64,000 nt of DNA from Bradyrhizobium sp. (GTDB lineage: Bacteria > Pseudomonadota > Alphaproteobacteria > Rhizobiales > Beijerinckiaceae): assembly GCA_004799435.1 (NCBI GenBank), contig SSMV01000056.1, positions 1-64,000 of the forward strand. The letters run 5' to 3'. The notes under the pieces were generated by a model, which was not told the DNA's origin, did no database searches, and saw nothing but the letters and a program-made list of their open reading frames with translations. Of this stretch, positions 1,927 to 64,000 are shown piece by piece (position 1 is the stretch's first letter; every line of letters begins with the position of its first letter). The position numbers and the translations under genes were made by a program.

Positions 1927-3252
1927 TTACGGCTCGGCCGCGTCGGCCGGCGCAGGCGTATTGGCCGTCGCCGGCTTGCGCGGGCCGCCCTCGCGGGGCG
2001 TTAGCGGCGTGACCCGCAGCGCGGCGATGCGATTGCGTTGGCGGCGCAGAACCTCGAAACGAAGACCGTGAAAACTGAAGGTTTGTTTGGGCTCGGGGAT
2101 CGTCCGCGCCTCATGAATGACCAGGCCGGCGATCGTCGCCGCCTCGTCGTCGGGCAGATTCCAGTCCATCGAGCGGTTGAGATCGCGGATGGTCACCGAC
2201 CCATCGACGATCAGCGAACCGTCGAGCTGCTTACGCACGCCGTGAACGGTGACGTCATGCTCGTCCTTAATGTCGCCGACGATCTCTTCGATGATGTCTT
2301 CGAGCGTCAGCAGGCCCAGCACGACGCCATATTCGTCGACCACCAGCGCGGAGTGAATCTTGCGGCGCAGGAAGGCCTGCAACTGGTCGCGCAGCGTCGT
2401 CGCCTCCGGCACGAACCAGGCCTCCAGCGCAATGTCGGCGGCGTTGATCCGGCTTGGATCGCCGCCCGCCGCGGCGAAGGCGCGCAGCAGATCCTTGGCG
2501 TGGAGCATGCCGATGATGTTGTCGGGTTCGCCCCGCCACAGCGGCATGCGGGTATAGGGCGAAGCCAGCACCTCGCGCACCAGTTCGGCGGCCGGCAGGT
2601 CGGCGTCGAGCGTGCGCATCTTGGTGCGATGGACCATTACGTCGGAGACGGTGACTTCGGACAGTTCGAGCAAGCCGCCGAACATGTCGCGCTCGTCGCG
2701 CGCGACTTCGCCCTCGCTATGGAGAATGTCGACCGCGCCGCGCAGCTCATCGTGACCCGAGACGCCCGATTGGCCGGACAGGGAGACGCCACAGAGGCGC
2801 AGCAGCAGGCGCACCAGCGCGCCGACCGCGCTGACGATCGGCCCGAAGACGGTGACGAAAAACGACGCGACCGGGGCGATCATCAGCGAGACTTCGTCGG
2901 GATAGGCGATCGCGATGGTCTTGGGCAGCACCTCGCCGAAGACGACGATCAGCGCGGTCATGATGACGGTCGCGTAGACGACGCCGCGCTCGCCGACCGC
3001 GGAAACCAGTTCATTGGTGGCGAGCGCCGAGGCGGCGATGGTCACGAGCTGGCCGCCGAGCAGCATCGCGCTGATGAAGCGGCCGCGCGTCGCGGCCAGG
3101 CGGGCGACCAGCGCCGCTCGCCGGTCGCCAGCCGTCTCAAGCGCGCGCAGGCGCGCGCGCGAGGCGGCGGTCAGCGCGGTTTCGGCGCCGGCGAAGAAGG
3201 CGGCGGCGAAGAGCGCGATCACGATGAAGAGAATGGCGAAAGGGGTCGACAT
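1927..3252 (-). CDS. CNNM/CorC-HlyC family membrane protein with CBS pair
   Basis: This 441-residue protein has the hemolysin C/CorC-like architecture. An N-terminal DUF21 (CNNM) membrane domain occupies about residues 1-185, with GAETALTAASRARLRAL and the hallmark FGEVLPKTIA. A CBS-domain pair follows (about 205-330: VMVHRTKMRTLDADLP, SALVVDEYGVVLGLLTLEDIIEEIVGDI), then the CorC_HlyC C-terminal domain (about 345-430). Family members are linked to magnesium or cobalt efflux and are not cytolysins despite the old name. Substrate is not evident here. It is a monocistron-like gene between hflKC and a GntR regulator on the same strand. Length is normal. Confidence 0.9.
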   Translation of the reverse strand: MSTPFAILFIVIALFAAAFFAGAETALTAASRARLRALETAGDRRAALVARLAATRGRFISAMLLGGQLVTIAASALATNELVSAVGERGVVYATVIMTALIVVFGEVLPKTIAIAYPDEVSLMIAPVASFFVTVFGPIVSAVGALVRLLLRLCGVSLSGQSGVSGHDELRGAVDILHSEGEVARDERDMFGGLLELSEVTVSDVMVHRTKMRTLDADLPAAELVREVLASPYTRMPLWRGEPDNIIGMLHAKDLLRAFAAAGGDPSRINAADIALEAWFVPEATTLRDQLQAFLRRKIHSALVVDEYGVVLGLLTLEDIIEEIVGDIKDEHDVTVHGVRKQLDGSLIVDGSVTIRDLNRSMDWNLPDDEAATIAGLVIHEARTIPEPKQTFSFHGLRFEVLRRQRNRIAALRVTPLTPREGGPRKPATANTPAPADAAEP

Positions 3253-3284
3253 GGCCGTCTTTTAGCACAGCCGAGGCTGCGCCA

Positions 3285-4070
3285 TTAGGGGTCGCCGGCC
3301 GCCAGCGCCGACTGGGGCGCGCCGACGGCGCTATCCTCGATCAGCGCGCGACGCACGTCAGCCGCTGATTCTCCTAGCAATTTCGCCATGGCGGCCCTGG
3401 CGGCGTCGGGCTTTTGCGCCGCGATCGCCTGCATCACGTCGCGGTGCTGATGGAGCCGATCATCCTTAATGGCGAGCGAGCGCCAGCCCATGCGGAACGT
3501 GCCGACCAGCGCCATTTCGATCAGGCTGCCAAGGCCGACTAGCAGGCCATTGCCGGTGGCGGCGAGGATCGCCTTGTGAAAGCGGACGTCGGCGCCGATC
3601 AGGTCACCGTCGCCGGTCTTGAAACGCTCCATATCGGCATAGGCCGCTTCGATAATCTCAAGCGAGGCGGCGTCACGAAATTCGGCGGCGAGCGCGGCCG
3701 CCGCCGGCTCGAAGATTCGGCGCAACTGGAAGACGTCGTTGACGAAATCCTCGGTTGGCGCAGCCAGCATATGCCAGGCGAGGAAATCGGAATCGAGCAT
3801 GTGCCAGTCGGACTTCGGCCGCACCATCGTGCCGACCTTCTGGCGCGACACGATCAGGCCTTTGGCCTCGAGCGCCCGGAAGGCTTCACGCAATGTCGGA
3901 CGGGAGACGCCGAAGCGCACCAGCAGGCGGGCTTCGGTCGGCAGGCGGGAGCCGGGCGGATAGAGACCGGCGATGATCTCGTAGCCAAGCACGGCGGCCA
4001 GCGAATCATTAACCCTGCGCCTGGCGATCGGCGCGCTCTCCGCTACCTCGTTGCGCTCGGGCGCGGACAT
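3285..4070 (-). CDS. GntR family (FadR/FCD subfamily) transcriptional regulator
   Basis: The protein has an N-terminal winged helix (YEIIAGLYPPGSRLPTEARL, FGVSRPTLREAFRALEAKGLI) and a C-terminal all-helical FCD ligand domain (DVRFHKAILAATGN). This is the FadR layout, used for regulators that sense small organic acids. I chose ATG at 4070 (261 residues) because GAGG lies just upstream; a GTG at 4136 would add 22 Arg-rich residues. The target is unknown: neighbours on both sides are unrelated and no sugar-acid or fatty-acid genes adjoin it. The 260 bases upstream (4071-4330) hold no convincing gene and may include its own operator. Confidence 0.85.
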   Translation of the reverse strand: MSAPERNEVAESAPIARRRVNDSLAAVLGYEIIAGLYPPGSRLPTEARLLVRFGVSRPTLREAFRALEAKGLIVSRQKVGTMVRPKSDWHMLDSDFLAWHMLAAPTEDFVNDVFQLRRIFEPAAAALAAEFRDAASLEIIEAAYADMERFKTGDGDLIGADVRFHKAILAATGNGLLVGLGSLIEMALVGTFRMGWRSLAIKDDRLHQHRDVMQAIAAQKPDAARAAMAKLLGESAADVRRALIEDSAVGAPQSALAAGDP

Positions 4071-4330
4071 CCGCCTCGCCGTTGCACGCCGTTTGGGTCT
4101 CGTCGTTTCGACCACGACCTCGCTCCGTTCGCCCACCGGCCGCCAGCCTCGCCCGCTACGCGCGGCTCGGGAGGCGCCGGGACGAAATCGCCGATTTCGA
4201 TCCCGCAGACCCCTGTAAAGCGGGCCTTTGACCTCCGCAATAGCCTATCTGGCGGCGGCGGCCCGGCCGCTCGCCTCCCGAAGCCCGGAATCGCAGGTTT
4301 GACGACCCTGTCGCAATCGCGATTCGCCGC

Positions 4331-4543
4331 TCAGCCGAGCCGGCGATCCTTGCGCAGGCGCTCGCTGTCGCGCCGTTCCCGCACGATCACCATCCAGGCG
4401 ACGACGACGACGAACAAGGCGCCGTCCGTGATCGCCAATTTGAGAAACGTCTCGGGGGTAAAAATCTGACCCCATAGCTGGGCGAGGCCGAGCGCGATCC
4501 CGGCGAGAAACAGCGCGAAGGCGACGGCGCCGGGCGCGCTCAT
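4331..4543 (-). CDS. Small two-helix membrane protein, unknown function
   Basis: This is a 70-residue protein starting MSAPGAVAF. It has two hydrophobic helices (about 6-26 and 38-55) and a basic, charged tail ([14 protein letters not shown]). Its ATG overlaps the stop of the YbjQ gene as ATGA, so it is very likely translated by coupling. I do not recognise a family. The coupling suggests it works with the YbjQ protein at the membrane, but that is inference. Confidence 0.72.
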
Positions 4544-60088: not shown

Positions 60089-61690
60089 ATGAGTGACGAA
60101 ACCGCCGCCAAAGTCCGCGCCGCGCTGCCGCGCGGCTTCGTCGACCGTGGCGCGGCCGACATCGCCGGCGCCGAGGCGATGATGGCGAAGATTCGCGCCG
60201 TCTATGAGCTTTATGGTTTCGAGGCGGTCGAGACGCCCTTCGTCGAATATACCGAGGCGCTCGGCAAGTTCCTGCCCGATCTCGACCGGCCGAACGAGGG
60301 CGTGTTCTCGTTCCAGGACGACGACGAACAATGGCTGAGCCTGCGCTACGATCTCACGGCGCCGCTCGCGCGTTACTTCGCCGAACATTACGAGCGGCTG
60401 CCCAAGCCCTATCGCAGCTATCGCACCGGCTGGGTGTTTCGCAACGAGAAGCCGGGCCCGGGGCGCTTTCGGCAATTCATGCAATTCGACGCCGACACGG
60501 TGGGCGCGGCTTCTCCCGCCGCCGACGCCGAGATCTGCATGATGGCGGCCGACTGTCTCGAAGCGTTGGGCGTCAAGCGCGGCGACTATGTGATCAAGGT
60601 CAATAGTCGCAAGGTGCTCGACGGCGTCATGGAGGCGATCGGCCTCGGCGGATCGGAGAACGCCGGCAGGCGCCTGATCGTGCTGCGCGCGATCGACAAG
60701 CTCGACCGTCTCGGCCCCGAGGGCGTGCGCGCCTTGCTTGGCGTCGGACGCAAGGATGAGAGCGGCGATTTCACCAAGGGCGCGGGGCTTGGGCCGGACG
60801 CGATCCACATCGTTGCAAATCTTCTGCTTCGCCCGCAAGTCAAAGGCTACTCGCGGAACCTCGGTGATTCGAAACGCCCAATCGCCGACATGGCTGCGGT
60901 ATCTCCTCCTCCCGGCGTCGATGGCGAGACGTGGCTAGATAATTTTGGAACGCTTGCTCACTGGATTTCGGCAATTGGGGCGACGGCGGGCGGCGCAAGC
61001 GCACTAGCCGAATTGCAGGAGATCGTGAGTATTTGCGAGGCGGCCGGATATGGGTCGAAACGAATAGTCATCGATCCCTCGGTCGTGCGCGGCCTCGAAT
61101 ATTACACCGGCCCGGTCTTCGAGGCCGAGCTGACCTTCGAAGTGACAGGCGACGACGGCAAACCGATCCGCTTCGGTTCGGTCGGCGGCGGCGGGCGCTA
61201 TGACGGGCTGGTGGCGCGCTTCCGTTCCGAGCCGGTTCCGGCGACAGGATTCTCGATCGGCGTGTCGCGGCTGATGGCGGCGCTCAGAGCGATCAAGAGC
61301 CCGATCGTCGCCGAGGCGGCCCGGCCCGGACCGGTGATCGTCGTCGTACTCGACCGCGATCGCATGGCCGATTATCAGCGCCTCACGGCGGCGCTGCGCG
61401 GCGCGGGGATCGCGGCGGAAATGTATCTTGGCGCAGCCGGCCTCAACGCCCAGCTCAAATACGCCGACCGGCGCGGCAGTCTCTGCGCCGTCATTCAGGG
61501 CTCCAACGAGCGCGACGCGGCCGGCGGCCCGCAGGTCGTCATTCGCGATCTTACGCTGGGCGCCGAACTCGCCAGGGCGAGCAAGGACCGCGCCGACTAT
61601 CTCGAATTGCGCCAGAAGGCCCAGTTCGCTGTCGCGGAAGCCGAGCTTGCGGCTGCCGTCGCGCAGGTTCTGGCGCGGGGCCGGGACTAG
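60089..61690 (+). CDS. hisS: Histidyl-tRNA synthetase (rhizobial long form)
   Basis: HisRS charges tRNA-His. The 533-residue protein follows the Hyphomicrobiales form: start [19 protein letters not shown], motif 2 region [22 protein letters not shown]-type pattern (here [17 protein letters not shown]), then [14 protein letters not shown] and [16 protein letters not shown]. The C-terminal anticodon-binding domain follows. Residues about 243-331 have lower GC and different codons from the rest of the gene and appear longer than in relatives. The reading frame is open throughout. ATG at 60089 is the family start. Confidence 0.95.
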
Positions 61691-62587: not shown

Positions 62588-63091
62588 ATGACGGAGCGGG
62601 ACGGCGAAGGCGGAAAGGCGCGGGCGGCGATGGCGGTGAAAAGCGCCGGGGGCAAGACGCCGAAGGCGGCCTTAGCGACCGCGCCGGTGCAGGCGCGCCG
62701 CTTCGTCGCCGCGCGGCGCCGTCGCGCCAGCGCGACCTTGGAAGATTACACCGAGCTGATCGCCGACCTGATCGCACGCAAGGGCGAAGCGCGCATCACC
62801 GACATCGCCGAACGGCTTGGCGTCGCCCATCCGACCGCCAGCAAGGCGATCGGCCGGCTGGAGCGCGAAGGCCTCGCGCTGGCCAAGCCCTATCGCGGCG
62901 TTTCGCTCACGTCCGCCGGACTGACGATGGCCGAGCGCTCGCGCCGTCGTCATCGATTGGTGGTCGATCTGCTGGTCGCCGTGGGCGCGCCGCGCGAAGC
63001 GGCGGAAGCCGACGCCGAGGGCGTCGAACATTACGTGTCGCCGGCGACGCTGGCGGCCTTCGAGGCGTTTCTGGCGGCCCATAAAAAATAG
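62588..63091 (+). CDS. mntR: Manganese-responsive regulator MntR
   Basis: MntR is a DtxR-family regulator that represses manganese uptake when Mn2+ is high. The 167-residue protein has a basic N-terminal extension (1-48), a winged helix (about 50-115: YTELIADLIARKGEARITDIAERLGVAHPTASKAI is that region) and a short helical metal-binding/dimer domain with HRLVVDLLVAVGAP and EGVEHYVSP. There is no SH3 domain. It converges with the mbfA gene across 11 bases. Confidence 0.9.
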   Translation: MTERDGEGGKARAAMAVKSAGGKTPKAALATAPVQARRFVAARRRRASATLEDYTELIADLIARKGEARITDIAERLGVAHPTASKAIGRLEREGLALAKPYRGVSLTSAGLTMAERSRRRHRLVVDLLVAVGAPREAAEADAEGVEHYVSPATLAAFEAFLAAHKK

Positions 63092-63102: not shown

Positions 63103-64000
63103 TCAACTGTTGCCGATGAGAATGCCCGCCGCCAGCACCAATCCGCCGCCAAGCATGACTTTGGCCGCCGCCGACAGCGGCGGCGTGTCCATGAAGCGCC
63201 ATTGAATCCAGGAAATCGTCGCCAGTTCGATGACGACGACGATGCAGGCAAGGACGGTGGCGGTGACGAAGTTCGGAATCAGATAGGGCAGCGTGTGGCC
63301 GATGCCGCCGGCGGTCGTCATCAAGCCGCAGACGAGGCCGCGCACCAGCGGCGCGCCGCGCCCCGACAATTTGCCGTCGTCGGCCAGCGCCTCGGCGAAG
63401 CCCATCGAAATGCCGGCGCCGATCGAGGCCGCCATGCCGACGAGGAAAGCGTTCCACGGCAGGTGGGTGGCGAAGGCGGCGGCGAAGACCGGCGCGAGCG
63501 TCGAAACCGAACCATCCATCAACCCGACCAGCCCCGGCTGGATGACATGGAGAATGAAGCGTTGGCGGGCGCGCTCGTCTTCGCCCTGACGCACCTCGGG
63601 CGTGAGAATCGTTTCCTCGAGATGCGCGGCGAGTTGCTCGTGCTTCACTTCCGCCTCGGCGAGATCGCCGAGCAATTTGCGGATCGCCGCGTCGCTCGTG
63701 CGCTCGATGGCGAGCCGGTAGAAACGTTCGGCGTCGCGCTCCATTTCGGCGGCGCGCGCGCGCGCGGCGTCGGCGCTGAGCGTCCTGAACTGCCAGATCG
63801 GCCTGCGGACGATATAGCCCTTGATGTCCTGGCGGCGGATGAGCGGAATGTGTTCGCCGAACTTGACGACAAACAGATCGATCAATTGCCGGCGATGGTC
63901 GTTTTCCTCATCCGCCATCTCGCTGAACATCTTGGCGCTCGAAGGATAGGAGTCGCTCAGGTTCTCGGCGAAATCGGCGAAGATGCGCCCATCCTCCTCC
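63103..64000 (-). CDS. mbfA: MbfA-like ferritin-VIT iron exporter (5' end outside window)
   Basis: The visible 298 C-terminal codons hold two parts. A ferritin-like diiron domain comes first (ENLSDSYPSSAKMF, EENDHRRQLIDL, RAAEMERDAERFYRLA, EAEVKHEQLAAHLEE). A VIT1/CCC1-type membrane domain follows (LVGLMDGSVSTLAPVFAAAF, GAGISMGFAEALADDG, and later helices). This is the layout of MbfA, an iron exporter in Bradyrhizobium and Agrobacterium that is repressed by Irr and protects against iron and peroxide. The ATG at 63930 is internal: the frame stays open to the window edge with conserved sequence. It is convergent with mntR. Confidence 0.9.
   Translation of the reverse strand, partial: EEDGRIFADFAENLSDSYPSSAKMFSEMADEENDHRRQLIDLFVVKFGEHIPLIRRQDIKGYIVRRPIWQFRTLSADAARARAAEMERDAERFYRLAIERTSDAAIRKLLGDLAEAEVKHEQLAAHLEETILTPEVRQGEDERARQRFILHVIQPGLVGLMDGSVSTLAPVFAAAFATHLPWNAFLVGMAASIGAGISMGFAEALADDGKLSGRGAPLVRGLVCGLMTTAGGIGHTLPYLIPNFVTATVLACIVVVIELATISWIQWRFMDTPPLSAAAKVMLGGGLVLAAGILIGNS

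Follow-up and report, generated by a model that had tools for sequence, protein, structure and literature searches.

A segment of the histidyl-tRNA synthetase (HisRS) encoded in the window, the 64,000-nucleotide stretch of Bradyrhizobium sp. contig SSMV01000056.1 that was analyzed, is almost certainly one allele of a hypervariable cassette that, judging from sequence comparison, is replaced as a block between conserved flanks in the hisS genes of Hyphomicrobiales. The first-pass annotation had described this part of the gene as a recombined or inserted segment in the insertion domain. Recombination at this position is supported by our analysis, and the site is now seen more widely, as hypervariable across the order rather than as a one-off mosaic.

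The hisS gene and its insertion-domain cassette

The hisS gene (60089–61690, forward strand, as are all features within it) encodes a histidine–tRNA ligase of the alphaproteobacterial (RRCH) type, and its frame is open over all 533 codons, in agreement with the earlier reading. The product scored 352.2 bits against TIGR00442, the curated hisS equivalog model, which is above the cut-off of 286.75; HisRS was the first match in a fold search, and the motif-2 loop reads NEKPGPGRF. Many conserved HisRS blocks were invariant in 72 sequences, and charging of tRNA-His is predicted. The gene was the sole match in the window's genome (i.e., single copy), an assembly of 194 contigs that is 98.88% complete. 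Elsewhere in the window, two genes lie tail to tail and form a plausible metal-homeostasis pair: the one at 62588–63091 is presumably a winged-helix regulator of the MntR kind, and we take the one at 63103–63930 to be a ferritin-like plus VIT-type membrane protein.

The boundaries of the cassette were set by two conserved anchors, which are largely invariant blocks among 72 aligned relatives. The N-side anchor, GDFTKGAGL (residues 226–234; 60764–60790), has G226, D227, T229, G231, and A232 invariant in these sequences, and the 13-residue C-side anchor (residues 333–345; 61085–61123), which we take to be a HisRS signature motif, has V333–G341 and E345 invariant. Between them lies the replaced hypervariable cassette (residues 235–332, 98 aa; 60791–61084), recognized by its third-position GC content (GC3), by allele identity, and by its single copy. 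Its core (residues 247–284; 60827–60940) is situated between two helices, and its second half (residues 285–318; 60941–61042) is helical, with low GC3 continuing through it.

The structure model of the window protein placed helices at residues 236–246, 285–296, and 300–318. Confidence was low in the core, with pLDDT below 50 at residues 252–280 in the center of the cassette, whereas block mean pLDDT was 82–98 over residues 281–320; one of the five models was good (mean pLDDT 85.1, compared with 71.5–75.5 for the other four). Another allele, that of locus L250, was modeled with a small β-hairpin at the core position and a block mean pLDDT of at least 81. Comparison with known HisRS folds puts the cassette at what we take to be the insertion domain. 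The cassette segment alone gave no Pfam match at E ≤ 1 and no significant match among PDB sequences (best E 0.12). The first-pass annotation had located the segment near the tRNA-contact surface; its assignment to the insertion domain stands by fold comparison, and the tRNA contact is putative, with net charge negative in 84 of 91 long-allele cores and zero in the window's core. The mostly acidic character of the long-allele cores does not suggest binding to tRNA.

Divergence, base composition, and distribution of the alleles

The hisS genes were gathered from the window's family and genus, from the genus Bosea, and from the order and class, using collections that hold one genome per species. 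A hisS match was present in 288 loci (within L001–L296), of which four were left out owing to failure of a motif pattern or truncation of the gene; merging of identical sequences left 248, and removal of four partial ones gave 244 distinct full sequences. Each was split into an N flank, a segment, and a C flank, and 29646 pairs were compared. Loci were taken in order of their match to a long-allele query, starting with the best, which overrepresents long alleles; their share therefore provides no frequency estimate. We call sequences Bosea-like when their flank identity to L014 is at least 0.85. Among Bosea genomes, 59 of 61 had a hisS match, 55 of the genes were divided, and the segment was longer than 66 aa in 49.

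Segments were far more diverged than the sequence around them. Flank identity was at least 0.85 in 1496 pairs; their median segment identity was 0.32, and 77% of them fell below 0.5, compared with medians of 0.86–0.97 and minima of 0.72–0.88 for four 80-column control blocks of the flanks in the same pairs. At flank identities of 0.93–0.97 (255 pairs) the distribution was bimodal, with segment identity below 0.4 in 148 pairs, between 0.4 and 0.6 in 5, and above this range in 102. The DNA of L246 and L247, compared in 90-base bins, was 0.87–0.99 identical over 3.3 kb that included both neighboring genes and 0.43–0.44 identical in the segment; the exceptions were a single bin that precedes the gene (0.52) and the one entering the segment (0.77). 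The structured helices were replaced along with the core. As had been claimed from the sequence alone, the window's segment differs from those of its relatives and is longer, with 98 aa versus 65 or 66 aa in 102 of the 201 distinct relatives first compared, and its best identity to any sampled segment was at most 37%. Lengths among the relatives ranged from 48 to 116 residues. The site also contracts, as seen in the very short segments (48–58 aa) of L104, L105, L156, L218, L225, L230, L241, L242, and L243. Two other pairs of neighboring Bosea loci, L248/L250 and L252/L253, differed by several hundred unalignable bases immediately downstream of hisS, after which conserved sequence returned.

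The base composition of the segment was also distinctive. In 150-base windows, GC was 0.57–0.61 across 60800–61149 and 0.60–0.72 elsewhere in hisS, where it was mostly at least 0.64. The GC drop noted in the first-pass annotation holds in direction; its figures of 53–58% were slightly too low for raw GC, and one flank window (60200–60349, 0.600) was as low as the cassette. Third positions separated the two better than raw GC, with GC3 of 0.602 in the 98-codon segment versus 0.832 in the hisS flanks. When 1320 overlapping 98-codon windows were drawn as a reference from other long ORFs in the window, picked by length and GC3 and not by annotation, the segment ranked at the 0.15 percentile for codon score and at the 0.9 percentile for GC3, which bears out the atypical codon usage described earlier.

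Relative to the gene that carries it, GC3 of the segment differed by a mean of −0.158 in long alleles (n = 119) and −0.041 in the common form (n = 115). The difference was −0.234 for single-member classes (negative in 51 of 53) and near zero in widespread classes such as the 75-aa Methylobacterium-type class, so that rare alleles look recent and common alleles look adapted. A GC3 deficit of more than 0.15 relative to the gene was seen in the first 60 segment codons of 72 of 119 long-allele genes, compared with 1 of 706 control blocks of 60 codons taken elsewhere in these genes. The fall in GC3 of rare alleles started about 30 codons before the segment and ended about 10 codons after it, an overrun on both sides that would follow from imported tracts with their ends in the conserved blocks. 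Candidate kinds of donor are a few members of the order with lower GC that have long alleles of their own (L028, L374, L375, L377, L381, and L382).

The 50 Bosea-like sequences fell into 23 classes at 50% identity, a number that depends on the threshold (14, 23, and 25 classes at 0.4, 0.5, and 0.6, respectively). Mapped onto a quick tree built from the flank DNA of the Bosea-like sequences, the 23 classes required at least 29 changes, the minimum possible being 22. The same segment in all near relatives, which the first-pass annotation had set against its own reading, did not occur: 10 distinct sequences from the window's genus held seven allele classes. Over all searches, 150 of 284 distinct sequences had a segment longer than 66 aa, and these formed 89 classes at 50% identity, 72 of them singletons. 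Classes recurred with diverged flanks (segment versus flank identity of 0.62 versus 0.68 for L244/L293, 0.59 versus 0.69 for L101/L173, and 0.58 versus 0.73 for L100/L262) and across families (segment identity of 0.49 for L250/L363 and 0.53 for L013/L370), and four long-allele classes, besides the common class, included both Bosea-like and other flanks. No donor was identified among long-allele pairs with flanks below 0.85, the segment being closer than the flanks in none of them; in pairs of any kind, segment identity exceeded flank identity in 49 of 29646, by 0.05 at most. Since no long-allele pair had a segment closer than its diverged flanks, shared classes in distant hosts could reflect old retention and not recent transfer.

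In the 50 Bosea-like sequences the segment correlated with the N flank at r = 0.39 (P = 0.001) and with the C flank at r = 0.11 (P = 0.055). The earlier expectation of separate histories for segment and flanks is upheld to the extent that these are only weakly shared, and it is tempered by the N and C flanks themselves, which correlated at only r = 0.22. Allele identity appears to follow ancestry in part. Lineages keeping one allele comprised 15 members of the Methylobacterium type, 15 of one 82-aa Bosea class, and 16 of the Methylocystis type. Eleven alphaproteobacterial-type HisRS sequences from outside the order had segments of 58–70 aa, without the long insert; judging from this small sample, short segments appear to be the ancestral state and long variable ones a later development within Hyphomicrobiales.

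Copies, carriers, and tRNA-His

No second copy of the cassette was found in the window's genome by protein search or by DNA search, in which the next matches spanned 16–26 bases with E of 0.45 or worse. A silent cassette, a paralogue, and a multi-copy mobile insert were rejected on this ground. A plasmid collection contained no DNA match to the segment. At the protein level 94 of its records matched, and the 15 listed contained whole or nearly whole hisS, mostly on large replicons; a 21.9-kb Cereibacter record in this collection (NZ_CP015293.1) has an annotated hisS that is 53.6% identical to the window's. Phage records gave 18 matches, of which the 15 listed were all below 60% identity and none covered 80% of the query. 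Two peptide patterns located four hisS loci on viral contigs, three with short segments and the fourth split in the cassette region, and the phage records and viral contigs searched included none that carries a long allele.

Three of the four viral-contig loci look to us like Bartonella and lie beside what are presumably prophage-like genes. An alphaproteobacterial-type hisS was seen on L434, L436, and L437 (IMG/VR, at about 2983–4460 in each), split over two frames on L436, and we assume that the adjoining genes are several prophage antirepressor-like genes. Another viral-labeled contig with hisS (L435:2917–5992) could represent a phage passenger or a mis-binned host piece; the gene that follows hisS on it is presumably tyrosyl-tRNA-synthetase-like. 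In another family of the class, genome G409 has two separate alphaproteobacterial-type hisS copies, on C24 and C51, with N parts 67% and 61% identical to that of the window. No linked variable neighbor gene was recognized in 32 Bosea-like loci, for which ORF clustering was noisy and shadow frames were dominant, and the linked genes of these loci yielded no candidate for a partner or antagonist that reads the cassette. Among the literature matches listed, none dealt in its title or abstract with a HisRS segment that is hypervariable or swapped.

The tRNA-His gene of the window's genome (L316:1498–1574, reverse strand) ends in T72-A73-CCA, and U72 and A73 were also found in the 30 Bosea tRNA-His genes read. 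In 60 of 61 Bosea genomes the tRNA-His shared 96–99% identity with that of the window's genome, and the 30 genes read comprised three distinct sequences when the base before G1 was ignored. One identical gene was shared by 19 Bosea genomes with a placed hisS; the 18 of these that were assigned to a class represent 11 allele classes. G1 is preceded by C in the gene of the window's genome, by G in 22 of the 30 Bosea genes, and by T in the other 8; this base may or may not be retained in the mature tRNA. The accessible text of PMC3937112 and PMC9976931 describes the derived HisRS and tRNA-His of the clade, with A73 and without a templated G-1, although 22 of 30 Bosea genes have G before G1. The identity of Caulobacter tRNA-His consists of A73, U72, and the anticodon according to the accessible part of PMC9976931, and these elements are kept in the genomes studied here.

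Explanations for the diversity of the cassette

The explanation that we favor as a whole, with a modest lean and no more, combines block replacement with homologous recombination and with novelty favored through an antagonist. Imported DNA would enter by ordinary homologous recombination, probably landing in the conserved coding blocks that flank the cassette, and imports would survive at the cassette since new or rare surface variants are favored there. Catalysis and the reading of tRNA-His, which lie in the conserved parts, would be retained. Judged within hisS, confinement of the putative imports and of replacement to the cassette site is strongly supported. Imports accumulate in the cassette rather than in the flanks, which are just as homologous, and numerous divergent classes persist together; on these grounds, selection for novelty probably acts at this site. 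As its driver, the foremost candidate would be a toxin, phage protein, or other inhibitor that recognizes HisRS at the cassette, and we put this antagonist forward tentatively.

The best rival to this scheme treats the segment as a permissive linker, a tolerant surface insert to which sequences immigrate without selection for novelty while recombinants are purged elsewhere. Such a linker would accord with the low-confidence loop predicted for the window's core, with lineages that keep one allele, with the tolerated range of 48–116 residues, and with a possible old age of the classes common to several hosts. We nevertheless consider it unlikely. Within classes, dN/dS of the long segments was 0.12, 0.17, and 0.21 at flank identities of at least 0.93, 0.90, and 0.85 (71, 124, and 188 long-allele pairs, respectively, with segment identity of at least 0.5), compared with 0.08, 0.11, and 0.13 in the C flank of the same pairs; another within-class estimate, 0.14, is biased downward by the prior selection of highly identical pairs. 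These low values argue that the cassettes are constrained protein and that the alleles have not decayed, which is at odds with a merely tolerated linker, as is the replacement of structured helices. Imports at the synonymous level should, moreover, survive in the conserved flanks too, yet the low-GC3 sign marked 1 of 706 flank blocks versus 72 of 119 segments, and 23 classes in a genus-sized group would be many for drift. Relaxed constraint, by which the segment would drift rapidly through point mutation and small indels, could produce the large variation in length and the low-confidence loop of the window's model, but we find it scarcely credible: it does not predict the near absence of intermediate identities (5 of 255 pairs), unrelated segments between nearly identical flanks, foreign codon usage, or within-class dN/dS values that are far from 1.

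A moonlighting or regulatory surface, by which each cassette would adjust HisRS to a local partner belonging to the host rather than allow escape from an enemy, fits with the constraint on the alleles, with the folded model of the L250 allele, and with the retention of some alleles within a lineage. It is improbable in our estimation, as a self-partner would need to change as often as the cassette and no linked changing gene was recognized in the 32 Bosea-like loci, where clustering was too noisy to exclude one. Finally, the insertion domain could have been replaced to fit changed acceptor stems. This domain adjoins the acceptor stem in known HisRS-tRNA complexes, and 4rdx was among the fold matches; nevertheless, we regard co-evolution with tRNA-His as very improbable. 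The nearly invariant tRNA-His of Bosea stands beside many alleles, including one gene that accompanies 11 classes in 18 genomes, so that co-variation with tRNA-His was rejected as the driver in this genus, and the identity elements given in the accessible part of PMC9976931 are kept here.

Favored novelty at a recombining cassette would have parallels elsewhere. Surface antigens, restriction specificity subunits, and the receptor loops of contact-dependent inhibition systems (CDI; e.g., BamA) are polymorphic loci exchanged by recombination under diversifying selection. The hisS cassette resembles them in its conserved frame, many divergent alleles, block exchange, and classes that extend across species, and differs in that hisS encodes a cytoplasmic, essential aminoacyl-tRNA synthetase for which the recognizing partner is hypothetical. 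A bolder and more doubtful view is that the cassette is a small subdomain equivalent, inside the cell, to MHC-like or receptor-loop loci, with recombining alleles under frequency-dependent selection and with widespread toxins or phage proteins that attack or hijack HisRS at this position. In the case of agrocin 84, a second, resistant whole LeuRS is reportedly carried, whereas hisS is single-copy and one cassette changes between conserved motifs. The two situations would be alike in pairing an antagonist directed against a tRNA synthetase with an altered form of that enzyme, as the accessible part of PMC5059758 describes for the self-immunity LeuRS. The RRCH-clade HisRS of PMC3937112 and PMC9976931 is the same enzyme as that studied here, with the motif-2 loop NEKPGPGRF and a tRNA-His with U72 and A73; in their accessible portions, these sources treat one ancient transfer of the whole HisRS and a change of tRNA identity, without recurrent replacement of an internal cassette.

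Aminoacyl-tRNA synthetases are usually regarded as slow, conserved housekeeping enzymes. The cassette makes this portion of hisS an unsafe marker for phylogenetics and strain typing. About two dozen unrelated insertion-domain alleles in a single genus-sized group, beside a near-constant tRNA, point to a selective agent that matches nothing described that we found, and the allele pairs in near-identical backgrounds offer a direct handle for finding it.
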